From Pseudarthrobacter chlorophenolicus A6 (GTDB taxonomy: Bacteria > Actinomycetota > Actinomycetes > Actinomycetales > Micrococcaceae): DNA of 64,000 nt. How positions within the stretch are numbered: position 1 is the stretch's first letter; each line of letters starts with the position of its first letter. Shown in pieces: positions 5,034 through 57,965 of the stretch. Under the pieces are notes generated by a model, which saw only the letters and a program-made list of their open reading frames with translations, did no database searches and was not told where the DNA came from. The stretch covers positions 496,001-560,000 of the forward strand of contig NC_011886.1 in the NCBI RefSeq assembly GCF_000022025.1. The letters are read 5' to 3'. Position numbers and translations under genes: made by a program.

Positions 5034-5050
5034 CGAACAGCCACTCCGCA

Positions 5051-5069: not shown

Positions 5070-5105
5070 CCCATATCCAGACCGCCAACCCGATAGGCCG
5101 CACCG

Positions 5106-8564: not shown

Positions 8565-8588
8565 GGTGCCGGGTCCGGTGCAACCCAT

Positions 8589-8622: not shown

Positions 8623-8630
8623 AGCTAGGC

Positions 8631-36514: not shown

Positions 36515-36536
36515 GCAAAACTCCTTTGTTCCGGCA

Positions 36537-36558
36537 CCCGGGCAGCCTCCAGCCCGGG
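36537..36558. repeat. Short GC-rich hairpin between permease and pectinase genes
   Basis: CCCGGGC and GCCCGGG pair around an 8-base loop in the 93-bp gap between the permease stop and the fusion enzyme start. It may attenuate or stabilise the operon mRNA. Confidence 0.35.
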
Positions 36559-36607
36559 CACCGTGCATTGTGTGTTGGTGAGTGGGTGATGCGTGGAGAG
36601 ACGTGAG

Positions 36608-40050: not shown

Positions 40051-40135
40051 AAATGCTTGCCGAATCTTTTCTGCTTGCCTATGCTGTTCTCCATCGCCAT
40101 GGATGCGATGCACCTACCACCGGAAGGAGGCGCCG

Positions 40136-41008
40136 TTGCCCACTCCAGACCTTGCGCCCGCCCGGCTCCTCACCCTGGTTCCCGGCTCGGGCGTTGCGCC
40201 GGCCAGTGCACCGAGGCCGTACTTCCACCCTGTGCGCTCCTTGTCCGGAACCGTGCTGACGGATGTCGCACCGGCTGACCACATCCACCACCTGGGACTG
40301 TCCGTGGCCTTCCCGGACCTGAACGGCACCAACTTCTGGGGCGGGTCCACCTACACGCAGGACCGCGGACCCGTAGTGCTGCCCAACCACGGCAACCAGG
40401 CCCTGGACGGCTGGACCGAGGAAGGAGCCCGTTCCACCGGCACCGTGCTGTGGACGTCCAGGCACGGAACCCTCCTGGCGGAGGAACGCCGCTCGGTGGA
40501 AGTTTCCGCGCATCCTGTTCCGGGAAGCTGGAGCCTGTCCCTGACCTCGGTGATGGTCCCGGCCGGAAACGTCGCCGCCCTGGAGGTGTCGTCGTCGGCC
40601 GTCAAAGGCCGCAGCGGCGCCGGATACGGGGGCATCTTCTGGCGCTTCCCCTCGGACAGTTCCGCAATCCGGGTCTTCTCCGCTGCCGGTGCGGGGGCGG
40701 ACGCGGCGCACGGATCCCGCTCACCCTGGCTCGCCATCAGCACCGTCACCGGCGGCGCCCCCGTAACGGTGGTGCTGTCCCAGGACGCTCCCGTCCGCCC
40801 TTGGTTTATCCGCTCGGAGGGCTACTTGGGAGTAGGCCCCGCCGTCGCCTGGTCCGAGAAGGCGGTGGCCGATGCCGCCCACCCGCTGGTCCAGTCGCTC
40901 CACGCAGTCATCCACGACGCCGCGGTGGAATCGCCGGACCAGGCACTCCACCTGCTTGAACACCATCCCGCCATACGCACGCCCAGCCATCCCGACAGGA
41001 CATCATGA
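40136..41008 (+). CDS. DUF6807 (PmoA-like) family protein
   Basis: 290 residues from a TTG at 40136 with a strong AAGGAGG site; this beats the longer frame. The family signature is clear: RPYFHPVRSLSGTVLTD, ADHIHHLGLSVAFPDLNGTN and FWGGSTYTQDRGP, with conserved histidines, as in proteins once named methane oxygenase PmoA but found in sugar-catabolic clusters. The function is not established; a carbohydrate-active role is inferred from position. The stop overlaps the GH43 start (ATGA). Confidence 0.8.
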   Translation: MPTPDLAPARLLTLVPGSGVAPASAPRPYFHPVRSLSGTVLTDVAPADHIHHLGLSVAFPDLNGTNFWGGSTYTQDRGPVVLPNHGNQALDGWTEEGARSTGTVLWTSRHGTLLAEERRSVEVSAHPVPGSWSLSLTSVMVPAGNVAALEVSSSAVKGRSGAGYGGIFWRFPSDSSAIRVFSAAGAGADAAHGSRSPWLAISTVTGGAPVTVVLSQDAPVRPWFIRSEGYLGVGPAVAWSEKAVADAAHPLVQSLHAVIHDAAVESPDQALHLLEHHPAIRTPSHPDRTS

Positions 41009-42582
41009 CCTCGCGCAACGCCGTCCCCGTGTACGCCAATCCCGTCCTCAATGCCGACTGGCCGGACCCCGATGCCGTCCAGGTCCGCGGCACCTATTAC
41101 CTGGTTGCGTCCAGTTTCAACCGCGTTCCCGGGCTGCCCATCCTCAAGTCCCGGAACCTCGTTGACTGGGAGCATGCCGGCCACGCCCTGCTGCAACTGC
41201 CGCAGGGAAGCCACTTCTCGCTGGTCCGCCACGGTGGCGGCGTCTGGGCGCCCGCGCTGCGGTACCACGATGGACGGTTCTGGATCTTTTATCCGGATCC
41301 GGACCACGGCATCTTCGTGCTGAGCGCCGAAAAAGCTGAGGGCCCCTGGACCGCGCCGCACCTCCTGTACGCAGGGCGCGGGCTCATCGATCCTTGCCCG
41401 CTGTGGGACGACGACGGCCAGGCGTACCTGGTGCACGGGTGGGCGAAAAGCCGGATCGGGGTCAAGAACCGGCTCACCGTGCACCGCATGAGCCCGGACG
41501 CCGGAAAGTTACTGGACCACGGCACCGCGGTCATCGACGGCGAAGACCTCCCCGGCTACACCACGCTGGAAGGACCCAAGTTCTACAAGCGGGACGGCTG
41601 GTACTGGATCTTCGCCCCCGCCGGCGGCGTGGCCACCGGCTGGCAGGCTGTCTTCCGTTCCAGGTCGCCGTTCGGTCCGTACGAGGAGCGCCGCGTCCTC
41701 GAGCAGGGGAACAGCCCGGTGAACGGACCACACCAGGGCGCCTGGGTGACATCGCCGCGGGGAGAGGACTGGTTCCTGCACTTCCAGGACCGCGGGCCCT
41801 ACGGACGGGTGGTCCACCTCCAGCCCATGGGCTGGGACGAGGACGGCTGGCCCTGGATGGGGGAGCAGGCGTCCGACGGCGGACCGGGAACCCCCGTGGC
41901 CAGCCACCCCTACCCGCGGGGTACTTCGCCGCAGGACGTGGCACCCCCGGCCAGTGACGACTTCTCCTCACCCTGGCTGGGCCCGCAATGGCACTGGCAG
42001 GCCAACCCCCGGCACTCCTGGTCCTTCCAGCCCGGTGGGGGCCGGCTCATCCTCCGGCCGCAGGCCAACGATCCCGTCAACCTCCGGGAGCTGCCCAATG
42101 TCCTGGCCCAGATCCTTCCCGGCACGCCGTCCACCTTCACCACCTCGCTGGAACTGCAGGATGTCCCGGTGGGAACCCGTGCCGGCGTGGTGGTGCTGGG
42201 GCAGGAATACGCCTGGCTGGGCATCGTCCGGACGGCTGACGGCTTCGTCCTGGGAAGCGGGACCGGGGGAGAGGGCCCTTCGGAGCAGGCGCCCGGGCGC
42301 AGTATTTCCCTCCCGGCTGCCCGGGTGGAACTGCAGATCCGCACCGACGGCACGCCCCGTTCCACCTTTGCCTGGCGCCTCGGCCCCGGGGAGCCGTGGG
42401 AGGTCCAGGGCTGGAACTTCGGCGTCGTCCAGGGGAAGTGGATCGGCGCTGAACTGGGGATTTTTGCCACGTCGCCGCTGGGATCCCGGGAGGACGGCAG
42501 TGTTATCGTGGGACCCGTGCGCGTGGACACGGCGCCCGTTCGCCGGGCAACTGCCCCGCAGCTCGCCGCCGCAACCACATGA
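41005..42582 (+). CDS. Glycoside hydrolase family 43 enzyme (beta-xylosidase/arabinofuranosidase type)
   Basis: 525 residues, no signal peptide, so intracellular. A five-bladed GH43 propeller occupies about residues 1-300: NPVLNADWPDPDAVQVRGTY holds the catalytic base Asp, RYHDGRFWIFYPDPDHG and LIDPCPLWDDDGQAYLVHGW follow, and the acid Glu lies in TLEGPKFYKRDGWYW. A C-terminal beta-sandwich (from about 315, SPWLGPQWHWQANPRHSW) is typical of GH43 subfamily 12-like enzymes. It should trim xylose, arabinose or galactose units from imported oligosaccharides. Coupled by overlap to its neighbours. Confidence 0.92.
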   Translation: MTSRNAVPVYANPVLNADWPDPDAVQVRGTYYLVASSFNRVPGLPILKSRNLVDWEHAGHALLQLPQGSHFSLVRHGGGVWAPALRYHDGRFWIFYPDPDHGIFVLSAEKAEGPWTAPHLLYAGRGLIDPCPLWDDDGQAYLVHGWAKSRIGVKNRLTVHRMSPDAGKLLDHGTAVIDGEDLPGYTTLEGPKFYKRDGWYWIFAPAGGVATGWQAVFRSRSPFGPYEERRVLEQGNSPVNGPHQGAWVTSPRGEDWFLHFQDRGPYGRVVHLQPMGWDEDGWPWMGEQASDGGPGTPVASHPYPRGTSPQDVAPPASDDFSSPWLGPQWHWQANPRHSWSFQPGGGRLILRPQANDPVNLRELPNVLAQILPGTPSTFTTSLELQDVPVGTRAGVVVLGQEYAWLGIVRTADGFVLGSGTGGEGPSEQAPGRSISLPAARVELQIRTDGTPRSTFAWRLGPGEPWEVQGWNFGVVQGKWIGAELGIFATSPLGSREDGSVIVGPVRVDTAPVRRATAPQLAAATT

Positions 42583-43613
42583 CCCCAAGGACTGCCCCGT
42601 TGACCGCCACCCCGCGTCCCAAGATCGCTGACGTTGCGGCCGCCGCAGGGGTGTCTGTACCCACCGTGTCAAAGGTCCTGAACGGGCGAACCCACGTTTC
42701 GGAGGCCACGCGGGCCAAAGTGCAGCAGGCCCTTGATGAGCTGGACTATTCCAAGCGGAACGCCGCAGCGGCCCAGCCAGGGATGCTGCAGCTGGTGGTC
42801 AACAACTTCGATTCGCCCTGGGTCCTGGCCACTATGGAAGGCGTGGAGGCCGCAGCGGACCGGCTGGGATATGCGGTGGCGTATGTGCGGGCTGAACATG
42901 TCACTGCCGACCGCTGGCGGAAACTGCGTGAACCATCGGTAAACCGCCTGGACGGGGTCATGCTGCTGGCACCACGCAGCGGCTCCCGCCTGGTGACACT
43001 GGCGCGGTCGCTGAAGATTCCGGCCGTGGCCATCGACCCCGAGGGGGCCGAAGGGCTGGATATCCCCAGCGTCAGCCCGGCGTCCTTCTCCGGCGCGCTC
43101 GCCGCCGTCGGGCATCTCCTGTCCCAGGGACACCGCCGGATCGGAATCATCACCGGACGCAAGCACAGCCCCGGGCACGGCCGGGCGCGGTACGCAGCCT
43201 ACGCGGCCGCCCTGCACGAGGCCGGCCTGCCGGTCCTGCCGGAGCTTGTCCGGGACGGTGATTTCAGCATCGAGTCCGGCATGCGCCTGGGAGCCGACCT
43301 TCTGGACCTGGCCGAGCGGCCCACCGCCATTTTCACCGGCAGCGACCTTCAGGCCCTGGGCGTGATGAATGCCGCGGCGCAGCGCTCTTTGCAGGTACCG
43401 GGGGACCTCAGCATCGTGGGGTTTGACGACATCGCCCAGGCCGCGTTGACCTCTCCGCCGCTCACCACTGTCCGCCAGCCGCTGGCACAGCTGGCCACCA
43501 TGGCCGTGGGCATGCTCATCGAGCAGCAGGACGGCCAGGGCGCGGTGCCCGCGGCTTTGGAGGTGGCCACCGAACTGGTGGTCCGCGGAACCACGGCCCC
43601 TCCGGCAAGCTAG
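42579..43613 (+). CDS. LacI family transcriptional regulator
   Basis: 344 residues. The N-terminal helix-turn-helix is canonical: KIADVAAAAGVSVPTVSKVL and NGRTHVSEATRAKV with the minor-groove helix after it. The rest is a periplasmic-binding-like sugar domain (GVMLLAPRSGSRL, GHRRIGIITGRKHSPGHGRA, VPGDLSIVGFDDIAQAALT). The ATG overlaps the GH43 stop; a TTG at 42600 with AAGGA upstream is an alternative. It probably represses both divergent operons through the CAGAAA-N-TTTCTG sites. Confidence 0.92.
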   Translation: MTPRTAPLTATPRPKIADVAAAAGVSVPTVSKVLNGRTHVSEATRAKVQQALDELDYSKRNAAAAQPGMLQLVVNNFDSPWVLATMEGVEAAADRLGYAVAYVRAEHVTADRWRKLREPSVNRLDGVMLLAPRSGSRLVTLARSLKIPAVAIDPEGAEGLDIPSVSPASFSGALAAVGHLLSQGHRRIGIITGRKHSPGHGRARYAAYAAALHEAGLPVLPELVRDGDFSIESGMRLGADLLDLAERPTAIFTGSDLQALGVMNAAAQRSLQVPGDLSIVGFDDIAQAALTSPPLTTVRQPLAQLATMAVGMLIEQQDGQGAVPAALEVATELVVRGTTAPPAS

Positions 43614-43622
43614 TTCCCGCCG

Positions 43623-44327
43623 CTATTTGGCGGGGAGTACCAGGTTCTTCAGGTCGTCCAGCGTCTGCTGCATGTGGGCGTCCATGGCCAGCCGGGAGCG
43701 GGTGGCGTCGCCTGACTGCAGGGCCTCGGCGATGTTCTGGTGATGGCCGATGGCGTGTTCCTGGATGGCCGGAACGGCGGAGGTTTCGGCCCGGCGCTTC
43801 TCCAGGACGCGGTGCAGCGGCTCAAAGAGCACGGAGACGAACACATTGCCGGACGCGCGCAGGATCACGTCGTGGAAGGCGAGGTCGGCTTCGACGAAGG
43901 ACGCGACGTCGTTGATGGCGTGGGCGGCCTTCATCGCCGCGATGTAGGCGAAGAGGGATTCGGTATCCGCCTCGGAGATCCGGCCCGCAGCCAGCTCGCA
44001 GGCGCCGGTCTCCAGCATGCGGCGGAGCTCGATGAGCTGCACGGAAGCCTCGGCTTCGTTCTTGCCCTCCGACGCCGCACGGAGCACGGCCTCGAGTGAG
44101 GTCCACCGGTTCAGTGGGTTCACGAATGTGCCCCGGCCGCGCTCCACGCTGAGGATCTGCTGCGCCTGCAGTGTCTTCATGGCTTCGCGCACCGTCATCC
44201 GGCTGACTTCATGCCGGGCACTGAGCTCGTGCTCGCCGGGGACTGTTGACCCGGGCGGGAATTCGCCGTCGATAATGCGGTCCAGCAGTTCGTCGGCCAC
44301 AACGCCAACCAACGACTTCCTTGCCAT
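43623..44327 (-). CDS. FadR-subfamily GntR transcriptional regulator
   Basis: 234 residues. The winged helix-turn-helix contains FPPGSTVPGEHELSARHEVS and RMTVREAMKTLQAQQILSVE, ending RGRGTFVNP. The C-terminal FCD ligand domain has ELRRMLETGACELAAGRI, DLAFHDVILRASGN and the metal-binding type HAIGHHQNIAEAL. It is divergent from the DUF1537 kinase operon, with two TGTC-N-GACA sites between them. It likely represses the acid-sugar genes until a sugar acid or keto acid binds. Confidence 0.92.
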   Translation of the reverse strand: MARKSLVGVVADELLDRIIDGEFPPGSTVPGEHELSARHEVSRMTVREAMKTLQAQQILSVERGRGTFVNPLNRWTSLEAVLRAASEGKNEAEASVQLIELRRMLETGACELAAGRISEADTESLFAYIAAMKAAHAINDVASFVEADLAFHDVILRASGNVFVSVLFEPLHRVLEKRRAETSAVPAIQEHAIGHHQNIAEALQSGDATRSRLAMDAHMQQTLDDLKNLVLPAK

Positions 44328-44368
44328 GGTTCCCCCGATTCCTGCCGTGGGCGTCTACCCGGCGGATA

Positions 44369-44377
44369 TGTCTGACA
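44369..44377. promoter_or_regulatory. Secondary TGTC-T-GACA site
   Basis: TGTCTGACA repeats the core of the 17-bp palindrome at 44428, 63 bp away centre to centre, 42 bp upstream of the regulator start. It is a likely second FadR-family site giving autoregulation. Confidence 0.55.
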
Positions 44378-44427
44378 AGTCTACTTGCGCGTCTTTTATG
44401 TCGTGTGCCACACTAGCATTCAAATGC

Positions 44428-44444
44428 AAGATGTCAGACATCTT
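44428..44444. promoter_or_regulatory. 17-bp palindromic FadR-type operator
   Basis: AAGATGTC-A-GACATCTT is a perfect palindrome, 56 bp upstream of the kinase start. TGTCNGACA cores are typical of FadR-subfamily GntR regulators. Confidence 0.75.
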
Positions 44445-44500
44445 ACAGATTCATTTACACCTTGATCCGGACCCCGGATCGCAACACAACGGAGTGCACT

Positions 44501-45976
44501 GTGACGCTTGAAGCAGACGTCCTGGCCGCCTATCCCGCGGACTTCCCCATCCCCGCAGCCCTGGTGGCCGGCACCCTGGCCGCTTCCAACGCGGAGACTC
44601 CCCGCGTCCTGGTAGTGCTCGACGACGACCCCACCGGAACGCAGTCCGTGGCAGACCTGCCCGTGCTCACCCAGTGGGACGTCGAGGATTTCACCTGGGC
44701 CTTCAGCCAGTCCAAGCCCGCGGTCTACGTCCTGACCAACACCCGCAGCCTGGACCCGGCCGAAGCCGCCGCCCGTAACGAAGAAGTGGTCCGCAACGCC
44801 CTCGCCGCCGCCGGCGGCGTGAAGGTCGGCTTCGTCAGCCGCAGCGACTCCACCCTCCGCGGCCACTACCCGCTGGAGCCCGACGTCATCGCCGCCACGG
44901 TCGGCGAGGTAAGCGGTGAAGCCACCGACGGCGTCGTGCTGGTCCCCGCATTCCCCGACGCCGGCCGCATCACCATCGGCGGCGTCCACTACATGCGCGG
45001 CACCGGTGAGGCCGCCGGCACCCTGGTTCCGGTCTCCGAGACCGAATTCGCCAAGGACGCCAGCTTCGGCTTCGCCACCTCCGTCATGGCGGAGTACGTG
45101 GAGGAAAAGTCCAAGGGCCGGTTCACCGCTGACTCCGTGATCGTCCTGGACCTGAACATCATCCGCGCAGGCTCTGCCGCCCAGGACCCCGCCATCTCGG
45201 CCAAGGCCATCGCAGATGCCATCGAGGGAGCCACCAACTCCACCCCGATCGTGGCTGACATCGTCACTGAGAACGATTTCCGCGCACTGGCCCTCGGCCT
45301 GGAAGAGGCAGAGCGCCGCGGTAAGAAACTCCTCTACCGCGTGGGCCCGCCGTTCGTCCGCGGCCGCATCGGCCAGGAAGTCCGCACGGCCCTGACCGCA
45401 GAGGAAGCCTACGAAGGCAACACGCCCTCCACCGCCGGCGGCCTGATCGTAGTGGGCTCGCACGTGGGCGTCACCACCCGCCAGTTGAACGTCCTCACGG
45501 CCGAACACAGCTCCGCACGCATCATCGAGATTGACGTCGAGAAACTCCTCGCGGACCCGACGGACGCCGCAACCCACCTGGACCAGACTGTGGACACCGT
45601 GGTCGAGGCCCTCCGCGGCGGCGACGTCATCGTGCACACCAGCCGGCTCCTGATCAAGACCGACGACGCCGCCGAAAGCCTGCGGATCGCGCGCACCGTG
45701 TCCGCCGCCGTCGTAGCCGTGGTCAACCGCACCCTGAAGACCTTCCCGCCGCGGTTCGTCATCGCCAAGGGCGGCATCACCTCCTCGGACGTCGCAGCCC
45801 ACGGCCTGGAGATCCGCCACGGCATTGTCCGCGGCCCCATGCTGCCGGGCATCGTCTCCCTCTGGGAGCCGGTGGACGGCCCCGCCAAGGGCATCCCGTA
45901 CATCGTTTTCGCCGGCAACGTGGGCGACGACGACTCCCTGGCCCAGGTCACCCGCAAGCTCAGCAACACCTTCTAG
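44501..45976 (+). CDS. DUF1537 four-carbon acid sugar kinase family protein
   Basis: 491 residues from a GTG at 44501 with GGAG six bases upstream. The N-terminal substrate domain opens with VLVVLDDDPTGTQSVADLPV; the C-terminal nucleotide domain has GLIVVGSHVGVTTRQLN, FVIAKGGITSSDVAAHGL and LPGIVSLWEP. Known members (OtnK, DtnK) phosphorylate C4 of 3-oxo-tetronate or D-threonate. Here it precedes an LtnD-like dehydrogenase, a GntP permease and a fructose-bisphosphate-type aldolase, so its substrate may be a longer or different acid sugar. Family call is firm, substrate open. Confidence 0.9.
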   Translation: MTLEADVLAAYPADFPIPAALVAGTLAASNAETPRVLVVLDDDPTGTQSVADLPVLTQWDVEDFTWAFSQSKPAVYVLTNTRSLDPAEAAARNEEVVRNALAAAGGVKVGFVSRSDSTLRGHYPLEPDVIAATVGEVSGEATDGVVLVPAFPDAGRITIGGVHYMRGTGEAAGTLVPVSETEFAKDASFGFATSVMAEYVEEKSKGRFTADSVIVLDLNIIRAGSAAQDPAISAKAIADAIEGATNSTPIVADIVTENDFRALALGLEEAERRGKKLLYRVGPPFVRGRIGQEVRTALTAEEAYEGNTPSTAGGLIVVGSHVGVTTRQLNVLTAEHSSARIIEIDVEKLLADPTDAATHLDQTVDTVVEALRGGDVIVHTSRLLIKTDDAAESLRIARTVSAAVVAVVNRTLKTFPPRFVIAKGGITSSDVAAHGLEIRHGIVRGPMLPGIVSLWEPVDGPAKGIPYIVFAGNVGDDDSLAQVTRKLSNTF

Positions 45977-45988
45977 TCCCTCCGGTGG

Positions 45989-46023
45989 TTGAGCCTGTCG
46001 AAACCGCATTTCGACAGGCTCAA
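45989..46023. repeat. Inverted repeat TTGAGCCTGTCGAAA, REP-like element
   Basis: The 15-bp arms TTGAGCCTGTCGAAA and TTTCGACAGGCTCAA pair perfectly around a 5-base loop, in the gap between the kinase and the dehydrogenase. From memory, this word is scattered through Arthrobacter and related genomes. Within an operon it may stabilise mRNA or cause partial termination. Confidence 0.75.
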
Positions 46024-46065
46024 TCCCCGAGCCACCACGCCCCAAACATTCAACGGAGAAACACC

Positions 46066-46965
46066 ATGACCAGCAACTACACCGTCACCGTCCTGGGCCT
46101 TGGCGCCATGGGCCTGCCCATGGCCACCCGCCTCGCCTCGCAGGTGACCGTGCACGGCTTCGACATTGCCGAACCGCGCCTGAAGCTCGCTGAAGAAGCC
46201 GGCATCGCCACCTTTGGCACCGCCCGCGAAGCGGCCAAGGGCGCCGACGCCGTCCTGCTCGCCGTCCGCAACGGCGAACAGCTCAACGACGTCCTCTTCG
46301 GCGAGAACGGCGTGGCCTCCGTCCTGGAGCCGGGCGCCGTCGTCATCCTTGGCAGCACCGTGGGTACCGAAGCCATCCCCGCCACCGTCGAGAAGCTGGC
46401 TGCCTACGGCGTCGAGCTCGTTGACGCGCCGCTCTCCGGCGGACCCAAGCGTGCCGGCGAAGGCGACCTGCTGATCGTCGTCGGCGCTTCCCCCGAAGCC
46501 CGCGAAAAGGCGGCGCCCGCGCTGGAACTGCTGGCCTCCACCCTCACCGTGGTGGGCGACAAGCCCGGCGACGGCCAGGCCCTGAAGACCGTCAACCAGC
46601 TCCTTTGCGGCGTCCACATCGCCGCCGCCGCCGAGGCCCTGGCCCTGGCGGACGCGCTCGGCCTGGACCAGGCCAAGACCCTCGCCGCCCTCGAAGCCGG
46701 CGCGGCAGGTTCCTTCATGCTCTCCAACCGCGGCCCGCGCATCCTGGAGGCCTATAACGAAGAGGGCGCCGAGGTCCTCTCCCGCCTGGACATCTTCGTC
46801 AAGGACATGGGCATCGTGGGCAAGGCCACCCGCGCCGCCGGCCTGGCGGCTCCGGTTGCCGCCGCAGCGGAGCAGCTCTACCTGCTGGGCCAGGCCCAGG
46901 GCCTCGCCGCCGCCGATGACTCCGCAGTCATCAAGGTGGTAGCCCCCGCCAAGCGCACCAACTAA
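46066..46965 (+). CDS. Beta-hydroxyacid dehydrogenase family, LtnD/GarR-like
   Basis: 299 residues from an ATG preceded by CGGAGA; the longer frame covers the repeat and is rejected. It has the NAD site VTVLGLGAMGLPMATRLA, the substrate loop VDAPLSGGPKRAGEGDLL and the catalytic Lys in GQALKTVNQLLCG. The family includes L-threonate dehydrogenase (LtnD) and tartronate semialdehyde reductase (GarR). Beside a DUF1537 kinase, LtnD is the usual partner, but with an FBA-type aldolase a GarR role, reducing a semialdehyde product, is also reasonable. Confidence 0.85.
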   Translation: MTSNYTVTVLGLGAMGLPMATRLASQVTVHGFDIAEPRLKLAEEAGIATFGTAREAAKGADAVLLAVRNGEQLNDVLFGENGVASVLEPGAVVILGSTVGTEAIPATVEKLAAYGVELVDAPLSGGPKRAGEGDLLIVVGASPEAREKAAPALELLASTLTVVGDKPGDGQALKTVNQLLCGVHIAAAAEALALADALGLDQAKTLAALEAGAAGSFMLSNRGPRILEAYNEEGAEVLSRLDIFVKDMGIVGKATRAAGLAAPVAAAAEQLYLLGQAQGLAAADDSAVIKVVAPAKRTN

Positions 46966-46994
46966 GAACCAACCGGCAGCACCCTCCCCAATAC

Positions 46995-47032
46995 GTACGA
47001 CGGCGGCGGTCCCCCCTCCGCCGCCGTCGTAC
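46995..47032 (+). terminator. GC-rich hairpin after the dehydrogenase gene
   Basis: GTACGACGGCGGCGG pairs perfectly with CCGCCGCCGTCGTAC around an 8-base loop, 30 bp after the stop. It may terminate part of the transcripts or set a lower level for the permease and aldolase. Confidence 0.65.
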
Positions 47033-47115
47033 CCCTTGCGTTACTCCCCTTAGAAACAACCGGCGCCTTATTGCCCGTCTTCTGGAAGACTGGCACGTCA
47101 AAGGAGACACCCATC

Positions 47116-48582
47116 GTGAACCACCTCATTAGCCCGCTGATGGTGCGGGCGGCCGACGCTCCGGCCATCAAACCCGCAGTTGAGCTCGGCACCCCGCTGC
47201 TGCTGACCATCGCAGCGCTCGGCATCGCCGTGCTGCTGGTGATGATCATCCGCTTCAAGATCCAGGCCTTCGTAGCCCTGCTGACCGTCAGCATCCTGGT
47301 GGCCGTGGCCTCCCAGATCCCGCTCAAGGATGTGTTCACCGTTGTGGCCAACGGCGTGGGCAGCACCATGGGCAAGGTGGCGCTGCTGATCGCCCTCGGC
47401 GCCGTGCTGGGCCGGATGATCGAGGTCTCCGGCGGCGTGCAGTCGCTGGCCGCGCACTTCACCGAGAAGCTCGGTGCCAAGCGCGTGGCAGTGGCCCTCA
47501 CCGCCGTCGGCTTCCTCGTGGCCATCCCCGTGTTCTTCGAGGTGGGCGTCATCGTCCTGGTGCCGATCGTCTACGCCTTCGCCAAGATCGCCAAGGTCCA
47601 CCCGGTCAAGTTCGGCCTGCCCATGGCCGGCATCATGCTCTCCATCCACGTTGCCGTCCCGCCGCACCCCGGCATCGTTGCCGGCGCCGGCGTCTTCGGC
47701 GCGGACATCGGACTGATCACCCTGATCTCGCTGGCCATCTGCATTCCCCTCGGCTTCCTGTCCTACTGGGTGGCCAGCATCATGAACCGCAAGGAATACG
47801 AACTCCTGCCCTCGGTCAAGGCCCAGGTTGAGGAGTTCGGCTCCGACTCACTGGTCAAGGTGGGCCACGACGGCCCCGGCGCGTCCGCCATCGCTCCGCC
47901 CCGTCCCGGCCTGATCATCTTCCTCATCGCCGCCCCCATCGTGCAGATCCTGCTCGGCACCCTGGGCACGCTGACCATCCCCAAGGACAACTCCTGGTAC
48001 GGCCTGGCCGCCTTCATCGGCAACCCGTTCTTCGCCCTCCTGGTGGCCGTTGCCCTCTCCTTCTTCCTGCTGGCCGTCCGCCGCAACTGGTCGCTGAAGG
48101 AAACCGGTGAAATCTTCGAAGGCGCGCTGCCTCCCATCGCGTCCATCCTGATGGTGGTTGCCGCCGGCGGCGTGTTCGGTGAAGTCCTGCGGACCTCCGG
48201 CATCGGTGCAGCGCTGTCCCAGACCCTGGACCACCTCGGCCTGCCCGTCATCGCCCTCGGCTTCGTAATCTCGCTGGCACTGCGCGCCGCCCAGGGTTCG
48301 GCCACCGTTGCCATCGTGACCACCACCGGCCTGCTGACCTCCGCCGTCATGGAGGGCGGTTACAGCCCGGCACAGATCGCCGTGATCGTGATCGCCATCG
48401 GCTTCGGCGCGCTGGGGCTCTCCCACGTCACCGACGCCGGCTTCTGGACCGTGGTGCGCTACTACGGCCTCACCGTCTCCGACGGCCTGAGGACCTGGAC
48501 CGTGCTCACCACCGTCCTGGGCCTGGCCGGTTTCGCCCTGACCTTCGTGGCCTGGATCCTGGTGGGAGGCCTGGGCGTCTGA
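47116..48582 (+). CDS. GntP family permease (gluconate/sugar-acid:H+ symporter)
   Basis: 488 residues from a GTG with AAGGAGA upstream. About twelve to fourteen hydrophobic segments span the protein. Family signatures include FVALLTVSILVAVASQIPL, VGSTMGKVALLIALGAVLGR, VAIPVFFEVGVIVLVPI, PHPGIVAGAGVFGADIG and LRAAQGSATVAIVTTTGLL. It should import an aldonate or related acid with protons. The stop overlaps the aldolase start by one base, tying the two together. Confidence 0.92.
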   Translation: MNHLISPLMVRAADAPAIKPAVELGTPLLLTIAALGIAVLLVMIIRFKIQAFVALLTVSILVAVASQIPLKDVFTVVANGVGSTMGKVALLIALGAVLGRMIEVSGGVQSLAAHFTEKLGAKRVAVALTAVGFLVAIPVFFEVGVIVLVPIVYAFAKIAKVHPVKFGLPMAGIMLSIHVAVPPHPGIVAGAGVFGADIGLITLISLAICIPLGFLSYWVASIMNRKEYELLPSVKAQVEEFGSDSLVKVGHDGPGASAIAPPRPGLIIFLIAAPIVQILLGTLGTLTIPKDNSWYGLAAFIGNPFFALLVAVALSFFLLAVRRNWSLKETGEIFEGALPPIASILMVVAAGGVFGEVLRTSGIGAALSQTLDHLGLPVIALGFVISLALRAAQGSATVAIVTTTGLLTSAVMEGGYSPAQIAVIVIAIGFGALGLSHVTDAGFWTVVRYYGLTVSDGLRTWTVLTTVLGLAGFALTFVAWILVGGLGV

Positions 48583-49457
48583 TGCGCACCCGACTCGACC
48601 ACCTGGTCACCTCCGCGCTGCAGCAGGGCTCCGCTGTTCCCGCCTTCACCTGCTACGACTTCACCACCGCCCTGGCCGTGGTGGGCGCCGCGGAGGAATC
48701 CGGCCGCGGCGTCATCCTGCTGGTGGCCCCCAAGACGGCTGCCACCCCCAACGGGCTCCGCCTGATCGCGGCACTCCGGGGCCTGGCTGACGCGGCCTCC
48801 GTGCCGGTCGCCGTGCAGCTCGACCACGCCACGGACCTCGCAGTGATGGCCGACGCCGTCGCGGCGGGGGCGGATTCGGTCCTCGCCGACGGTTCGTCCT
48901 TGCCTTACGAGGAGAACATCGCCCTGGTGGTGTCCGCCCGGGAACTCCTGGCGGCCAACGGACATCCCGATGTGGTGCTGGAAGCGGAGCTCGGCGGCCT
49001 GGCCGGCGACGAGGACCGTGCCTTCTCGGCTGACCAGCCCGCAGACCAGTCCGGCGTTGCCGTGGCAGGCCTGACCGACTCCGCGCAGGTGGAGGACTTC
49101 GTGGCCCGCACCGGTGCCCAGCTCCTTGCCGTTGCCGTGGGCAACGTCCACGGCAAGTACAAGGGCGAGCCGCAGCTGCGCTGGGACGTGCTGCAGGACA
49201 TCGCTGTGCGCACCCACCTTCCGCTGGTCCTGCATGGCGCGTCCGGCATTCCGGCCGAAGAGCTGGTGAAGGCCGCCGCCATGAACGTGGGCAAGGTCAA
49301 CTTCAACACCGAGCTGCGCACCGGGGTGCTGGCCACGCTGCAGGAGCAGCTCCCGGCGCACCGCGCCGACGGTGAAAACCTGCAGGCGCTCCTGGGGCAC
49401 TGGAACCGGTCTGCCGGAGAGTTCGCCGGCGCCACGCTGGCCACGCTGACCCGGTAG
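48582..49457 (+). CDS. Class II fructose-bisphosphate aldolase family enzyme
   Basis: 291 residues. Zinc-ligand and active-site segments of class II aldolases are visible: VAVQLDHATD, VLEAELGGLAGDED, AVAVGNVHGKYKGEP, PLVLHGASGIPAEE and the phosphate-binding KVNFNTELRTG. Such enzymes release dihydroxyacetone phosphate from a ketose phosphate. As last gene of the DUF1537 operon it should split the product of the kinase. It is not the class II aldolase/adducin protein (OtnC) of the known tetronate routes. Reaction products are inference. Confidence 0.88.
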   Translation: MRTRLDHLVTSALQQGSAVPAFTCYDFTTALAVVGAAEESGRGVILLVAPKTAATPNGLRLIAALRGLADAASVPVAVQLDHATDLAVMADAVAAGADSVLADGSSLPYEENIALVVSARELLAANGHPDVVLEAELGGLAGDEDRAFSADQPADQSGVAVAGLTDSAQVEDFVARTGAQLLAVAVGNVHGKYKGEPQLRWDVLQDIAVRTHLPLVLHGASGIPAEELVKAAAMNVGKVNFNTELRTGVLATLQEQLPAHRADGENLQALLGHWNRSAGEFAGATLATLTR

Positions 49458-49503
49458 GCCCAAGACGCCGGGAAACTCCGGGGAGGGAGGCTAGGATCGA
49501 GCC

Positions 49504-49908
49504 ATGATCCTGGCCTCCCTCCTTTTCGCGTTCCTTGCTGCCGCGCTGCACGTTTTCATCTTCACGATGGAATCCTTGACCTGGACCAAGCCGGCAACGT
49601 GGAAGCGTTTCAGCATCGAGTCCCAGGAAAACGCGGAGATCACCAAACCCCTCGCCTACAACCAGGGCTTCTACAACCTGTTCCTGGCTGTCGGCGCCCT
49701 GATCGGCGCAGGCCTGGTGGTGTTCGGGGCGGACGGCTCGGCGCAGGACGTAGCCGGCTGGACCCTCATCTTCGCCAGCTGCGGCTCCATGCTGCTGGCG
49801 GCGCTGGTCCTTGCCCTGTCTGGCCGCAAGTACCTCCGCGCGGCCATAACCCAGGGCGCCACGCCGCTGCTCGCCGTCGTCCCCGGCCTCCTGGCTGTTT
49901 CCCTCTAA
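49504..49908 (+). CDS. DUF1304 family membrane protein
   Basis: 134 residues, four membrane segments. It begins ILASLLFAFLAAALHVFIF and carries the family stretch NQGFYNLFLAVGALIGAG. Function unknown; such proteins are small inner-membrane proteins of stand-alone genes. GGGAGGGAGG lies upstream at a rather long distance from the ATG. It is 46 bp after the aldolase but is probably separate. Confidence 0.9.
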   Translation: MILASLLFAFLAAALHVFIFTMESLTWTKPATWKRFSIESQENAEITKPLAYNQGFYNLFLAVGALIGAGLVVFGADGSAQDVAGWTLIFASCGSMLLAALVLALSGRKYLRAAITQGATPLLAVVPGLLAVSL

Positions 49909-52461: not shown

Positions 52462-52496
52462 CGCAACTCCCCAATTTGTTGACCGAAGGAAGACCC

Positions 52497-54131
52497 GTGC
52501 CGCTGATGCCCCGACTCGATGAGACGCAAGTGGACCACTCCGCCCGCCAGGACCTGGCTCACCGGGACCCCGCCCGCCAGGACCTGAATGCGGTCCCGCA
52601 GGGAGAGGATTTCGGCTCCCGCGTGGAACTGGCCCTCGGGGCCACCAACCACCTCCTCAATGCCCGGAACTCACCCCGCTACGTTGCGCAGGTGCTGCAG
52701 GGCGTCACCGCCGTGGCCACCAAGCTGGAACGGACCACCCAGCCGTTCACCGGCGTCGGCCCTGCCGATATGCGGACACGCGTGGGAGCAGTGGACCTGG
52801 ACACCCCTTTGCCGGACACCGCCGCGGCCCTGCAGGAACTCGAAGACGTGTACCTGCGCGACGCCGTCTACTTCCACGACTCCAAGTACGCCGCCCACCT
52901 CAACTGCCCCGTGGTGATCCCGGCGCTGGTAGGTGAGGCCATCCTGTCCGCGGTGAACTCCTCGCTGGACACCTGGGACCAGAGCGCGGGCGCCACCATG
53001 ATCGAACGGCGCCTCATTGACTGGGCCGCCGAACGGCTGCACCTGGGCGCTGCAGCGGACGGCATCTTCACCTCCGGCGGCAGCCAGTCCAACCTGCAGG
53101 CCCTGCTCATCGCACGGAACCACGCCGTGGCAGGCCTGCGCCAGGATCCCGCCCTGGCCGGCCTCCGCCTCCCGGCACTGCTGGACACCCTGCGCATCTT
53201 CACGTCCGAGGACAGCCACTTCAGCGTGCAGAAGTCCGCCTCCATGCTGGGCCTCGGGTTCGATGCCGTCATCACCGTCCCGTGCTCCGCGGACCACCGG
53301 ATGGACCCGGCCGCACTTGCCACGGCCATGGCGGAAGCGCACGGCGCCGGCCTGACCGCCATGGCAGTGGTGGCCACCGCGGGGACAACGGACTTCGGCG
53401 CCGTGGATCCGCTCGCAGAGCTCGCCGCCCTGGCCCGGGCCTACGGTGCCTGGTTCCACATCGACGCTGCCTACGGCGGCGGCCTGATGGTCTCCGGCAG
53501 GTACCGGCACCTGCTGGACGGCAGCGGCCTCGCAGACTCGGTCACCGTGGACTTCCACAAGACCTTCTTCCAGCCCGTCAGCTCCAGCGCCCTGCTGGTC
53601 CGGGAAGCAGCGATGCTGCGCCACATCACCTACTACGCCGACTACCTGAACCCGGAGAGTGCCGCCCTGGCGGACATCCCCAATCAGGTGGACAAGAGCA
53701 TCCAGACCACCCGCCGCTTCGACGCCCTGAAGCTCTGGCTCACCCTGCGGATCATGGGGGCGGATGCCATTGGCGCGCTCTTCGACGAGGCGATCGACCT
53801 CGCCGCCCGCGTTGGTTCTGTCCTCGAAGCCGATGATGACTTCGAGCTTGCCGCCGCACCGCAGCTGAGCACCCTGGTGTTCCGCTACCGCCCCGTGCTG
53901 GACTCCGGCGCACGCCTCTCCGATGAGGACGCCGATGCCCTCAACCCCGCCATCCGGGCAGCCATCTTCGCCTCCGGTAAAGCCGTGGTGGCAGGCACCA
54001 AGGTGGGCGGACGCCACTACCTGAAATTCACGCTCCTCAACGCCGAGGCAACCCTTGGGGACATCACGGACATCATCACCCTCCTGCGCAGCACCGGCGC
54101 CGGACTCCTGCAGAAGGAAACCACCGCATGA
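52497..54131 (+). CDS. desA: Lysine decarboxylase of desferrioxamine synthesis (DesA-like)
   Basis: 544 residues from a GTG at 52497, with GAAGGAAG just upstream; a TTG at 52476 is possible. It is a group II PLP-dependent decarboxylase: TSGGSQSNLQALLIARNHA, VATAGTTDFGAVDPL, WFHIDAAYGGGLM and the PLP lysine in VDFHKTFFQPVSSSALL. In siderophore operons this enzyme makes cadaverine from lysine. It is first in a four-gene operon in the order desABCD with ATGA overlaps. Diaminobutyrate decarboxylase is the closest alternative family, excluded by the neighbours. Confidence 0.93.
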   Translation: MPLMPRLDETQVDHSARQDLAHRDPARQDLNAVPQGEDFGSRVELALGATNHLLNARNSPRYVAQVLQGVTAVATKLERTTQPFTGVGPADMRTRVGAVDLDTPLPDTAAALQELEDVYLRDAVYFHDSKYAAHLNCPVVIPALVGEAILSAVNSSLDTWDQSAGATMIERRLIDWAAERLHLGAAADGIFTSGGSQSNLQALLIARNHAVAGLRQDPALAGLRLPALLDTLRIFTSEDSHFSVQKSASMLGLGFDAVITVPCSADHRMDPAALATAMAEAHGAGLTAMAVVATAGTTDFGAVDPLAELAALARAYGAWFHIDAAYGGGLMVSGRYRHLLDGSGLADSVTVDFHKTFFQPVSSSALLVREAAMLRHITYYADYLNPESAALADIPNQVDKSIQTTRRFDALKLWLTLRIMGADAIGALFDEAIDLAARVGSVLEADDDFELAAAPQLSTLVFRYRPVLDSGARLSDEDADALNPAIRAAIFASGKAVVAGTKVGGRHYLKFTLLNAEATLGDITDIITLLRSTGAGLLQKETTA

Positions 54132-55504
54132 GCACCCCCACCAACGGCACCATCTTCGACTTCGCCGCGATCGGCGTCGGGCCCTTCAACCTGGGCCTCG
54201 CCGCCCTCACCGAACCCGTGGAGGGACTCAACGGCGTCTTCCTCGAACAGCGCGATTCCTTCGACTGGCACCCCGGCATGATGCTCGAACCCGCCCACCT
54301 TCAGGTCCCGTTCATGGCGGACCTGGTGACCATGGCGGACCCCACGTCGCCGTATTCGTTCCTGAACTTCCTGAAGCAGACGGGCCGGCTCTACCGCTTC
54401 TACATCCGGGAGAACTTCTACCCGCTGCGCGCCGAGTTCAACCAGTACTGCCAGTGGGTGGCGGGGCAGCTGCCCTCCGTGCGTTTCGGCACGGCCGTGC
54501 AGGAGGTGGCGTACGACGACGGCGTGTACCGGCTCTCCGTGTCAGGTCCGGACGGGCCGGAGGTGCTTTCCGCGCGGCGGCTGGTGCTGGGCACCGGCAC
54601 CTCCGCGTTCGTGCCGGCGGCGGCCCAAGGAATCCTTGCGGCCGCGGCTGCCGGCACCGGGGGAGTGGCCTTCCACAACGCCGACTACCTGGCCCGGAAG
54701 GCTGAACTGCAGCAGCAGCGCAGCATCACCATTTTGGGCAGCGGCCAGAGCGCGGCGGAGATCTACTACGAGCTCCTGCAGGAGGCGGACGCCTACGGAT
54801 ACCAGCTGAACTGGGTGACCCGCTCCGGGCGGTTCTTCCCGCTGGAGTACACCAAGCTGACCCTGGAGATGACCTCCCCCGAGTACGTGGACTACTTCCA
54901 CGGCCTCCCGCCCGGGCAGCGCGACCACCTGAACAAGACCCAGAAGAACCTCTACAAGGGCATCAACTCGGACCTGATCGATGCCATCTACGACCTCCTC
55001 TACACCAGGAGCCTGTCCGGCATGGTGGACACCCAGCTGCTCACCCACTCCACACTGACGGCCGCCGAATGGGACCCGGCTGCCGGAACCCACCGGCTGC
55101 ACCTGGAACATGGCGAACAGGGAACGTCCTACACCCTGGACAGTGAAGCCGTGGTGCTGGCCACCGGGTACGGCTACCGCGAACCGGCATTCCTGGCCGG
55201 TGTGCAGGACCGGATTGCCCGGGACGGTTCCGGCCGCTTCGCCGTGGACCGGAACTACGGCACCGGCGTTGAGCCGGGCGAGATCTTCGTCCAGAACGCC
55301 GAACTGCACACCCACGGGTTCGTCACCCCGGACCTCGGCATGGGCGCCTACCGCAACTCCTGCATCATCCGCGAAATGGCCGGCCGGGAGGTGTACCCCG
55401 TGGAACGCACCATCGCCTTCCAGCAATTCGGCGCGCCCCCTTCCGTCCCGGGAGTGCAGCCGGACCCGGCAGCGGGAAACGTAACCGTGGAGGTGCCGGC
55501 ATGA
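54128..55504 (+). CDS. desB: FAD-dependent cadaverine N-hydroxylase (DesB-like)
   Basis: 458 residues, family of lysine N6- and ornithine N5-monooxygenases. It has the FAD site DFAAIGVGPFNLGLAAL, MADLVTMADPTSPYSFLNFL, the NADPH site ITILGSGQSAAEIYYELL and the C-terminal LATGYGYREP and LGMGAYRNSCIIREMAG. It adds an N-hydroxyl group to cadaverine using NADPH and oxygen. Overlaps desA by 4 bp and desC by 4 bp. Confidence 0.93.
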   Translation: MSTPTNGTIFDFAAIGVGPFNLGLAALTEPVEGLNGVFLEQRDSFDWHPGMMLEPAHLQVPFMADLVTMADPTSPYSFLNFLKQTGRLYRFYIRENFYPLRAEFNQYCQWVAGQLPSVRFGTAVQEVAYDDGVYRLSVSGPDGPEVLSARRLVLGTGTSAFVPAAAQGILAAAAAGTGGVAFHNADYLARKAELQQQRSITILGSGQSAAEIYYELLQEADAYGYQLNWVTRSGRFFPLEYTKLTLEMTSPEYVDYFHGLPPGQRDHLNKTQKNLYKGINSDLIDAIYDLLYTRSLSGMVDTQLLTHSTLTAAEWDPAAGTHRLHLEHGEQGTSYTLDSEAVVLATGYGYREPAFLAGVQDRIARDGSGRFAVDRNYGTGVEPGEIFVQNAELHTHGFVTPDLGMGAYRNSCIIREMAGREVYPVERTIAFQQFGAPPSVPGVQPDPAAGNVTVEVPA

Positions 55505-56091
55505 GGTTCACCTTCCGATGCGTGGACCCCGTGGCGGACACACCCCTGCTGCACAGCTGGGTCACCCAGCCATATGCCGCGTTTTGGGGAATGCTGTCCG
55601 CCACCGAAACCGACGTCATCGACGAATACGCGAAGATCCAGGCGAGCGGACACCACCACGCCCTCCTGGGGCTCGACGGCGGCGTCCCCGCCTTCCTGAT
55701 GGAGGAGTACCTTCCGGCGTCCTCGCCGCTGGCCGCCGCCTACCCCGTCCTTCCCGGCGACGCGGGCATGCACCTGCTGGTGGCGCCGCCGTCGGGCGAT
55801 CCAGAAGCCGGTTTCACCACCGCGGTCATGGACGCCGTCCTGCACCGGCTTTTCGCCAGGCCGGAAGTGGAGCGCGTCGTGGTGGAGCCCGACGCCCGCA
55901 ACACCAAAATCCACGCCCTCAACGAACGGTTCGGGTTCCTGCCCGCGGGCGTGGTGGGGCTGCCGGACAAGGATGCGCTGCTGAGCTTCTGCACCCGGGC
56001 CGGCTACCTCGCCGCCCGCGAAACCCTTACCCCCTTGAAAACCACCGCCACCACCCGCACCGAAGACCTGCAGGGAGCCGCAGCACTATGA
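55501..56091 (+). CDS. desC: N-hydroxycadaverine acyltransferase (DesC-like, GNAT)
   Basis: 196 residues of the IucB/AlcB-type acetyltransferase family: LLHSWVTQPYAAFWGML, FLMEEYLP, DAGMHLLVAPP and RVVVEPDARNTKIHALNERF with the acyl-CoA-binding pattern, then GFLPAGVVGLPDKDALLSF. It transfers an acetyl or succinyl group from CoA to hydroxycadaverine, giving the hydroxamate units of desferrioxamine. Coupled to both neighbours by 4-bp overlaps. Confidence 0.92.
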   Translation: MRFTFRCVDPVADTPLLHSWVTQPYAAFWGMLSATETDVIDEYAKIQASGHHHALLGLDGGVPAFLMEEYLPASSPLAAAYPVLPGDAGMHLLVAPPSGDPEAGFTTAVMDAVLHRLFARPEVERVVVEPDARNTKIHALNERFGFLPAGVVGLPDKDALLSFCTRAGYLAARETLTPLKTTATTRTEDLQGAAAL

Positions 56092-57965
56092 CCGTCCAGC
56101 TCGAATCCACCGCCACCGCGCCCGGGGCAGCCGCAGCTGCGCCGCACCTCGAAGGGCGCCGGTGGGACGCCGCCAACCGGCACCTGCTCCGCAAGGCGCT
56201 CGCCGAGTTCTCGCACGAACGGATCCTCACGCCTGAGCCTGTGCCCGTACCCGTACCCGGAGCGCCGGAAGCCAATACCTACCGCCTCACCAGCGCCGAT
56301 GGATCCCACGAATACCGGTTCACGGCCAGGATCCTGGAGCTGGAGCACTGGTCCATCAGCGCCGGCTCCATCCGGCATATCCAGGACGGCACCGAAGCGC
56401 CGCTGGACGTGCTGGAGTTCATCACCGTGTTCCACGAGGCCCTGGGCATCAACCTCCAGATGCTCCCGGTCTACTTGGAGGAGGTCAGCAGCACCCTGGC
56501 CAGCCATGCCTACAAGCAGTGGGCGGGCCAGCCGACCGCCGGGGAGCTGGCTGCCGGGGTGACGGGCGGGCGGGACGTTGCCGCCGACTTCCAGGCGATC
56601 GAGCGGAGCATGACCGAGGGCCACCCCTGCTTTGTGGCCAACAACGGCCGGCTGGGGTTCGGCGTCAGCGACTACCTTGCCTTTGCGCCGGAAACCGGGG
56701 CACCGGTGCAGCTGGAGTGGATCGCCGTGCACCGCAGCCACGCCGTGGTGAGCACCAGCAGCGGCCTGGACTACGCAGCACACCTCGACGCCGAACTGGG
56801 CCCGCTCGCCGGCAGGTTCACCACGGAACTGGTGCTGCAGGGCCTGGATCCGGACCAGTACTTCTTCATGCCGGTCCACCCCTGGCAGTGGGAAAACAAG
56901 CTCACGGTCACCTTCGCGGCCGAAATCGCCCGGCAGCGCATCGTCCACCTGGGCACCGGAACCGATTCCTACCAGGCACAGCAGTCCATCAGGACGTTCT
57001 TCAACACCAGCCAGCCCTCGCGGAACTACGTGAAAACCGCCATGTCCGTGCTGAACATGGGGTTCATGCGCGGCCTCTCACCCCAGTACATGAAGGCCAC
57101 ACCGGCCATCAACGACTGGCTCCGGAAGCTGATCACCGCGGACGCCGCCCTGCAGCAGCGCGGGTTCACCATGATCGGCGAAATCGCGGCCATCGGCTAC
57201 CACAACCGGACCTACGAGGCCGCGTCCGCCAGCGGGTCACCGTACCGGAAGATGCTCTCGGCCCTGTGGCGGGAAAGCCCGCTGCCGCTCCTGGAAGACG
57301 GGCAGCAGCTGACCACCATGGCAGCGCTGCTGCACGTGGATTCCGCCGGAAAACCCATGGTTTCCGCCCTTATCGAGCGCTCCGGCCTCGCCCCGGAGGA
57401 CTGGCTGCGCCGCTACTTCGAGGCATACCTGGTGCCGCTGGTGCACTGCCTCTACAACTACGAGCTGGCCTTCATGCCGCATGGCGAAAACGTCATCCTG
57501 GTCCTCGAAAACGGCGTTCCGGTACGGGCCATCATGAAGGACATCGCCGAAGAGATCGTGGTGATGGGGGACCGGCTGGACCTCCCCGAGGAAGTTGCCC
57601 GGATCCGGGCGGACATCCCCGACGGCGAAAAGGTGCTGGCCATCTTCACCGACATCTTCGACTGCATCTTCCGCTTCCTCGCGGCACTGCTCGACGAGGA
57701 CGGGACGCTTCCGCAGGAGGCCTTCTGGCGTACCTCTGCCGAAGCCGTCCGGGACTACCAGGCACAGCACCCGGAGCTGGCCGGACAGTTCTCCCGGCAC
57801 AACCTGTTCGCTGCGGACTTCGAACTGTCCTGCCTGAACCGGCTGCAGCTGCGGAACAACCAGCAGATGCTGGACCTGACGGATCCGTCCGGAGGCCTGC
57901 AGATGGCCGGCCGCCTGGCCAACCCGCTGGCACGCTTCGCCGGTGAAACCACAGGACAAGCCTAG
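56088..57965 (+). CDS. desD: Desferrioxamine synthetase (DesD-like, IucA/IucC family)
   Basis: 625 residues from the ATG overlapping the desC stop; the longer frame runs through desC. The NIS-synthetase ATP-binding and active-site segments are clear: EGHPCFVANNGRLGFGVSDY, FFMPVHPWQWENKL, IRTFFNTSQPSRNYVKTAMS, NYELAFMPHGENVILVLENG and MKDIAEEIVVMGDRLDLPEE. It joins and cyclises hydroxysuccinyl-cadaverine units with ATP. With desABC it is enough to make desferrioxamine E or B. No exporter or receptor gene is adjacent. Confidence 0.95.
   Translation: MTVQLESTATAPGAAAAAPHLEGRRWDAANRHLLRKALAEFSHERILTPEPVPVPVPGAPEANTYRLTSADGSHEYRFTARILELEHWSISAGSIRHIQDGTEAPLDVLEFITVFHEALGINLQMLPVYLEEVSSTLASHAYKQWAGQPTAGELAAGVTGGRDVAADFQAIERSMTEGHPCFVANNGRLGFGVSDYLAFAPETGAPVQLEWIAVHRSHAVVSTSSGLDYAAHLDAELGPLAGRFTTELVLQGLDPDQYFFMPVHPWQWENKLTVTFAAEIARQRIVHLGTGTDSYQAQQSIRTFFNTSQPSRNYVKTAMSVLNMGFMRGLSPQYMKATPAINDWLRKLITADAALQQRGFTMIGEIAAIGYHNRTYEAASASGSPYRKMLSALWRESPLPLLEDGQQLTTMAALLHVDSAGKPMVSALIERSGLAPEDWLRRYFEAYLVPLVHCLYNYELAFMPHGENVILVLENGVPVRAIMKDIAEEIVVMGDRLDLPEEVARIRADIPDGEKVLAIFTDIFDCIFRFLAALLDEDGTLPQEAFWRTSAEAVRDYQAQHPELAGQFSRHNLFAADFELSCLNRLQLRNNQQMLDLTDPSGGLQMAGRLANPLARFAGETTGQA

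Follow-up and report, generated by a model that had tools for sequence, protein, structure and literature searches.

A five-gene operon locus of Pseudarthrobacter chlorophenolicus A6 probably devoted to three-step L-threonate catabolism, and its aldolase-bearing and aldolase-less relatives

DUF1537 kinases reportedly entered the literature with a founding paper by Zhang et al. of 2016. In Escherichia coli, the four-step threonate route comprises LtnD, OtnK, OtnC and OtnI and corresponds to the ygbJKLM gene row, which is closed by ygbN, encoding a putative transporter. A three-step L-threonate pathway was described in Arthrobacter sp. ZBG10, where LtnD yields 2-oxo-L-threonate, which 2-OtnK and 2-OtnC convert into dihydroxyacetone phosphate (DHAP), bypassing OtnI, and where 2-OtnC carries an F_bP_aldolase domain; the title of that work, as it appears in a reference list, also names D-erythronate (Guo et al., 2024, BBRC 695:149440, as given in PMC12540250). 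According to the same text, Arabidopsis At1g18270 (LTD) consists of LtnD-LtnD-OtnK-OtnC domains of the ZBG10 kind, and its knock-outs contain more L-threonate and display no detectable L-threonate dehydrogenase activity (PMC12540250). Here, we analyzed a window of 64,000 nucleotides of the soil bacterium Pseudarthrobacter chlorophenolicus A6 (NC_011886.1, positions 496,001 to 560,000; coordinates below are those of the window), which contains an acid-sugar operon that very probably encodes L-threonate catabolism by the published three-step route, and perhaps that of D-erythronate too.

A first-pass annotation of the window had placed a FadR-type regulator, a DUF1537 kinase, an LtnD-like dehydrogenase, a GntP permease and a class II enzyme of the fructose-bisphosphate aldolase (FBA) type in one locus, and all five genes are present at 43623-49457 with Pfam matches above the Pfam cut-offs (Table 1). 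These five frames fill the locus and so leave no place in it for OtnI, OtnC or PdxA2, in line with the annotation. The dehydrogenase, kinase and aldolase carry NAD_binding_2 with NAD_binding_11, SBD_N with NBD_C (the two halves of DUF1537) and F_bP_aldolase, respectively, with no OtnI over cut-off. We assign the three-step route because the same three families, likewise without OtnI, were reported for ZBG10, a member of the same genus group (PMC12540250); this likeness is one of families, and no difference is known.

The nearest named kinases belong to Pseudarthrobacter and Arthrobacter, the closest being 94-95% identical to the locus kinase. By BLAST, the locus kinase closely matches the Marchantia LTD fusion in its kinase domain (39.7% identity, E 4e-99), whereas E. 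coli OtnK is too distant to give a significant match. The best NCBIfam match of the dehydrogenase is the L-threonate dehydrogenase model ThreonDh (NF043037), with 241 bits, versus 161.5 bits or less for the semialdehyde reductase models, and its identity is 35% to E. coli LtnD, 39% to the second LtnD domain of Marchantia (LtnD2) and 29% to the first. The permease passes NCBIfam PRK09821 (NF007332; 679 bits against a cut-off of 524) and is 49.6% identical to E. coli YgbN. LtnD and a YgbN-type permease are common to the operon and the E. coli four-step route, from which the operon differs in having no OtnI over cut-off and a last enzyme from another superfamily.

The first-pass annotation had named the plant protein At1g18270 as a fusion of these three enzyme types, and the link holds both in PMC12540250 and in our sequence searches. 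In a fusion search filtered by protein length, with the best 120 of 792 matches listed, land-plant proteins of about 1375 residues were found with all the enzyme Pfam domains of the operon (e.g., Marchantia P0286), arranged as LtnD-LtnD-kinase-aldolase and thus, unlike the operon, fused into one protein with two LtnD domains; the locus kinase and LtnD are 40% and 39% identical to the Marchantia domains. For further comparison, 42 LTD-type fusions were chosen by length and layout, those bearing names being from land plants. Among the matches listed there were also LtnD-kinase fusions without an aldolase domain in fungi and bacteria, as well as kinases fused to an FCD regulator in actinobacteria. 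The fungal proteins P0280, P0284, P0287 and P0331 have no aldolase domain and join the kinase either to LtnD, in some cases alongside another dehydrogenase, or to an aldo-keto reductase.

The FBA-type aldolase is one of two F_bP_aldolase members in the genome, the other being of housekeeping size. Its AlphaFold model has a mean pLDDT (predicted local distance difference test) of 87, and its best matches in the PDB are class II aldolases, although the title of the second-ranked entry, an integrative model, does not name one. Its identity is 35% to the plant LTD domain and 34% to GatY. In the aldolase tree, 14 of 15 kinase-neighbour aldolases form one clade (support 100/100), that of L047 falling outside. 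Eleven FBA active-site positions were compared across 19 kinase-adjacent aldolases, the 42 LTD-type fusions, 120 close homologues (the best 120 of 1493) and E. coli FBAs. Eight positions, to which we presumptively ascribe metal and catalytic roles (as we also assume the FbaA numbering of Asn35 and D288), are identical in all 19 kinase-adjacent aldolases and all 42 fusions, so that the active site is intact, while one of the 120 listed homologues lacks one active-site His. At the position of FbaA Asn35, the Asn is common to FbaA, GatY, YdjI and the LTD-type fusions (42/42), whereas the kinase-adjacent aldolases have Thr (17 of 19, including Thr23 of the locus aldolase) or Ser (2 of 19), and Thr is found in 120/120 of the listed close homologues. 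The FBA active-site Ser is mostly Ala in the kinase-adjacent aldolases, and an active-site Asp, variable across the aldolases compared, is Asn in them. Asn at the D288 position was rejected as a sole marker, as it also occurs in LTD-type fusions and in 7ncc. Searching the literature for FBA active-site residues yielded nothing. Compared with the class II aldolases GatY, KbaY and YdjI, the locus aldolase has the fold, metal and catalytic residues in common, but sits in a separate clade, which has Thr or Ser for their conserved Asn.

In the route that we propose, the GntP/YgbN-type permease would import the acid; LtnD would oxidize C2 of L-threonate to give 2-oxo-L-threonate; the DUF1537 kinase, as 2-OtnK, would phosphorylate this product, presumably on the C4 hydroxyl; and the FBA-type enzyme, as 2-OtnC, would turn the kinase product into DHAP with loss of C1. 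The substrate of this last step, 2-oxo-4-phospho-threonate, is no beta-keto acid. The reaction might involve a metal-held enediol through which the carbonyl is moved from C2 to C3, followed by a decarboxylation that would leave the DHAP enediolate as in a class II aldolase, a fold suited to stabilizing this species, CO2 being released where such an aldolase would release an aldehyde. One enzyme doing the work of both OtnI and OtnC would fit the absence of OtnI. The earlier suggestions of one shared pathway independent of OtnI, OtnC and PdxA2, of a kinase acting on a keto-acid and of DHAP as product all agree with the ZBG10 route as it appears in PMC12540250. Conversely, the annotation had put aldol cleavage before the reduction of a semialdehyde and had taken the route to be undescribed, whereas in ZBG10 LtnD acts first, the kinase second and 2-OtnC last, which makes a semialdehyde step unnecessary, and the route has been in print since 2024 (Guo et al., per the same text, PMC12540250). 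The pathway is already known, and its step order differs from that earlier proposal.

Enzymes of the older threonate routes were searched for across the genome. PF00596 (Aldolase_II) occurs in two places, one a RhaD fusion and the other an AraD-like epimerase whose score against the OtnC model is 75 of 250 bits, so that this search revealed no OtnC in the genome. OtnI over cut-off was likewise absent, the best score on NF043033 being 145 bits against 325. The gene concerned (L010) scores higher as a hydroxypyruvate isomerase (244 bits, also below the cut-off of that model) and adjoins a tartronate semialdehyde reductase gene that is over its own cut-off; as such a glyoxylate-type pair, it was rejected as a hidden OtnI. 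Two further DUF1537 kinases are encoded in the genome. One (L009; G000:C3:1207000-1224000, at 6087-8516) is fused to PdxA in one frame of 809 aa, which adjoins peptide/nickel-type ABC transporter genes some 670 kb from the operon; PdxA2 is absent from the operon locus, and PdxA elsewhere is known from this fusion, no genome-wide PdxA search having been made. The other (L008; G000:C3:1949000-1966000, at 4861-9724) accompanies a RuBisCO-like protein, a KdgT permease and a zinc alcohol dehydrogenase; the best NCBIfam names are OiaK for the kinase (190 of 700 bits) and OiaX for the RuBisCO-like protein (360 of 700), both far below cut-off, and the cluster perhaps represents a related yet different acid-sugar route.

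A palindrome, AGATGTCWGACATCTTA, lies between the regulator and kinase genes, and the FadR-type regulator would bind it and control the operon. Many relatives likewise have an orthologue of this regulator transcribed away from the kinase gene, and TGTCnGACA stands near the kinase start at 53 of the 65 loci with a divergent regulator versus 7 of the 75 others; some genomes enter this count of 140 loci twice, and some misses are artefacts of counting positions from the frame start, the site being found further in. Several relatives (e.g., L171, L172 and L191) have a copy like the weaker ATATGTCTGACAAGT about 62 bp from the main site. Within the window, a scan with one mismatch gave 2 sites against 1.0 expected, which is not significant alone. 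An unlinked third enzyme under the same operator was looked for in 18 whole genomes, nine of them without the aldolase, and a longer form of the site (at most one mismatch) was present in 15, almost only before the kinase; additional places were a second copy within about 1 kb in G457 and G531 and one distant one-mismatch place each in G008 and G517, and a reversed control pattern also matches in 3 of the 18. Being conserved almost only before the kinase, the predicted operator speaks for a one-operon regulon and against co-regulation of OtnI or OtnC elsewhere. Co-regulated OtnI and OtnC homologues elsewhere in the genome, raised in the first-pass annotation as a finding that would tell against it, did not appear: there is no OtnC, no OtnI over cut-off, and the operator is found almost only here.

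The distribution of the genes was studied in a phylum sample of 396 genomes, 21 of which have the kinase (E <= 1e-20), and in a family sample of 149 genomes, with the kinase in 45 and the aldolase in 18 (E <= 1e-60). In 18 of 18 aldolase-bearing genomes of the family sample the kinase is present and close by, which indicates that the gene set is no chance grouping. For gene content, loci with short flanks were excluded, leaving 68 of 80 named loci (the best 80 of a longer list, no random sample), 39 of 40 in the family and 15 of 20 in the phylum. Among the 68 named loci, LtnD is present in 64 and the aldolase in 32, and 17 have LtnD and the permease and no aldolase. Kinase and LtnD are the constant core of the cassette.

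Several observations weigh against assigning the three-step L-threonate route to the operon. The dehydrogenase misses the NCBIfam L-threonate dehydrogenase cut-off (241 vs 350 bits), and because of this score its name denotes a best match and no equivalog call. Orthology to the assayed ZBG10 proteins would follow from protein families, genus and gene set. The aldolase departs from E. coli FbaA at three of the eleven active-site positions. The aldolase is missing from 27 of the 45 kinase-bearing genomes of the family sample and from beside the kinase at 36 of the 68 named loci; being absent beside over half of the kinases, it is not essential to kinase-LtnD function. On the plant side, the authors could not show kinase and aldolase activities for LTD, steps that stay unproven because the full-length protein could not be expressed, and the expressed LtnD1 domain was inactive (PMC12540250). 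With 35% identity to the locus aldolase and 39% to E. coli GatY, the aldolase domain of the plant protein is no nearer to the former, and its placement in the tree is weakly supported (53/73), for which reason a separate recruitment of this domain, closer to GatY, was set aside as not shown.

The same enzymes could be ordered otherwise, with the kinase acting on a longer keto-acid, a true aldol cleavage giving DHAP and an acid semialdehyde, and the dehydrogenase reducing the latter. The dehydrogenase family does take in tartronate semialdehyde and 3-hydroxyisobutyrate enzymes, and the aldolase retains the class II metal and catalytic residues; yet LtnD scores best as an L-threonate dehydrogenase by the margin in bits given above, the permease is YgbN-like, the same enzyme set is reported to oxidize L-threonate first (PMC12540250), and Thr or Ser in place of the FBA Asn would fit loss of the substrate's usual aldehyde part better than ordinary aldol cleavage. 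We regard this order as very improbable. Slightly less so, albeit still improbable, is that the chemistry is that of the three-step route and the true substrate another four-carbon acid, D-erythronate or another tetronate. D-erythronate is named in the title of the 2024 paper (reference list of PMC12540250), and at two Cryobacterium loci (L213 and L215) a short-chain dehydrogenase/reductase (SDR) gene stands beside the kinase with no LtnD found, as if various acid dehydrogenases fed the kinase; the present locus, however, has LtnD and no such SDR, and its permease closely resembles the transporter encoded next to the threonate genes of E. coli.

That many kinase-LtnD cassettes lack the aldolase could also mean that the latter is an unrelated neighbour, an ordinary tagatose- or fructose-bisphosphate aldolase, and that the kinase-LtnD pair works alone. 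This we find scarcely credible, as no genome of the family sample has the aldolase without the kinase (18/18), it forms its own clade, its gene overlaps the permease gene, its Thr/Ser is found neither in E. coli FBAs nor in the 42 LTD-type fusions, and an F_bP_aldolase family enzyme of ZBG10 is reported as 2-OtnC (PMC12540250). To the published three-step route, to which we continue to assign the operon, our analyses add the Thr/Ser for Asn in the aldolase, an operator found almost only before this operon and a kinase-LtnD core with many aldolase-less relatives.

Regarding these relatives, 20 of the 27 aldolase-less kinases of the family sample are 50-76% identical to the locus kinase, and the remaining seven, at most 45% identical, are perhaps no orthologues. 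On the kinase tree, from which 12 of 60 kinase loci were omitted as near-copies, fragments or remote rows, aldolase presence changes seven times, and at least four times counting well-supported branches only (quick method); L047 was scored as aldolase-less, its aldolase being outside the clade, and one fusion protein lacks the cut motif. The 20 better aldolase-less genomes, searched for F_bP_aldolase and OtnC, each have at least one F_bP_aldolase; OtnC over cut-off was found in two (G473 and G450), and in five (G515, G431, G423, G439 and G429) the sole F_bP_aldolase is of housekeeping size, with no OtnC over cut-off, an absence that is weak in G423 since that genome is 82% complete. Several aldolase-less clusters with kinase and LtnD (L130, L131, L134-L136, L138-L141 and L149) include varying sets of genes for an SDR, a 3HCDH-type dehydrogenase, a xylose-isomerase-like barrel, a DAK-type kinase, RpiB and a TPI-like protein, and look like combined tetritol and tetronate catabolism; three of the five single-FBA genomes (G431, G423 and G439) have clusters of this kind. 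Such genes do not exclude the aldolase, which in L156 is accompanied by opposite-strand genes for TPI, SDR and 3HCDH. In L220, L221 and L227 (Cryobacterium, Microbacterium and Agromyces), an FBA of 341-343 aa that groups with housekeeping FBAs lies beside an aldolase-less cassette, the L221 stretch ending soon after the kinase, with the rest of the cassette out of view. The SDR that adjoins the kinase in L213 and L215, where no LtnD was found nearby (perhaps also in L211, which has a short downstream flank), may be another acid dehydrogenase that supplies this kinase in place of LtnD. A possible, though rather doubtful, generalization is that LtnD and 2-OtnK are the sole constant module, the dedicated aldolase being repeatedly gained, lost or swapped, and that another enzyme finishes the phosphorylated 2-oxo-tetronate in over half of the sampled actinobacterial cassettes. 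That enzyme is perhaps the housekeeping class II FBA acting as a decarboxylase, or the cassettes may use a 3-oxo route via SDR/3HCDH-type dehydrogenases; filamentous fungi, with their LtnD-kinase fusion lacking an aldolase domain, may share the same last-step question.

Table 1. Genes and sequence elements of the operon locus, in window coordinates.
Feature	Coordinates	Strand	Remarks
FadR-type (GntR-FCD) regulator	43623..44327	-	divergent from operon; Pfam GntR 70 bits, FCD 89 bits
Second, weaker operator-like copy ATATGTCTGACAAGT	44366..44380	.	similar copy in several relatives
Predicted operator AGATGTCAGACATCTTA	44429..44445	.	core TGTCnGACA, conserved near kinase start
DUF1537 kinase, predicted 2-oxo-tetronate 4-kinase, 2-OtnK type	44501..45976	+	Pfam SBD_N+NBD_C
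Perfect palindromic repeat, strong hairpin	45989..46023	.	between kinase and dehydrogenase; z -8.0
LtnD-like beta-hydroxyacid dehydrogenase, predicted L-threonate 2-dehydrogenase	46066..46965	+	NAD_binding_2+NAD_binding_11
GC-rich perfect hairpin, no T tract	46995..47032	.	between dehydrogenase and permease; z -8.4
GntP-family permease, YgbN-like, predicted threonate importer	47116..48582	+	GntP_permease, NF007332
Class II FBA-type aldolase, predicted 2-OtnC (2-oxo-tetronate 4-phosphate to DHAP)	48582..49457	+	PF01116 218 bits

The kinase frame spans 44462-45976 (+), with a likelier start at GTG 44501, behind GGAG, and the permease frame 47071-48582 (+), with a likelier start around GTG 47116, behind AAGGAG; the dehydrogenase starts at ATG 46066, and the stop codon of the permease overlaps the start codon of the aldolase (TGATG). 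The palindrome at 45989-46023 has TTTCGACAGGCTCAA arms, and the arm is found nowhere else in the window at up to one mismatch. No Rfam family reached gathering scores within the 64-kb window, and neither a sigma-70-like promoter nor a T-tailed terminator was detected in 43500-49700. Genes for a DUF6807 protein, a GH43 glycosidase and a LacI-type regulator (40103-43613) adjoin the operon and are apparently separate. Elsewhere in the window, 34454-36568 (-) encodes a 704-aa protein with pectate lyase and pectinesterase domains, adjoining ABC transporter genes with a solute-binding protein, and 52476-57965 contains a decarboxylase (best NCBIfam name RhbB, 403 of 900 bits) followed by a lysine/ornithine N-monooxygenase and an 815-aa frame, which looks like a hydroxamate siderophore cluster.

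The operon adds one more genome to those with the recently described threonate route. L-threonate is a breakdown product of vitamin C, and the route is the bacterial counterpart of the proposed land-plant vitamin C breakdown.

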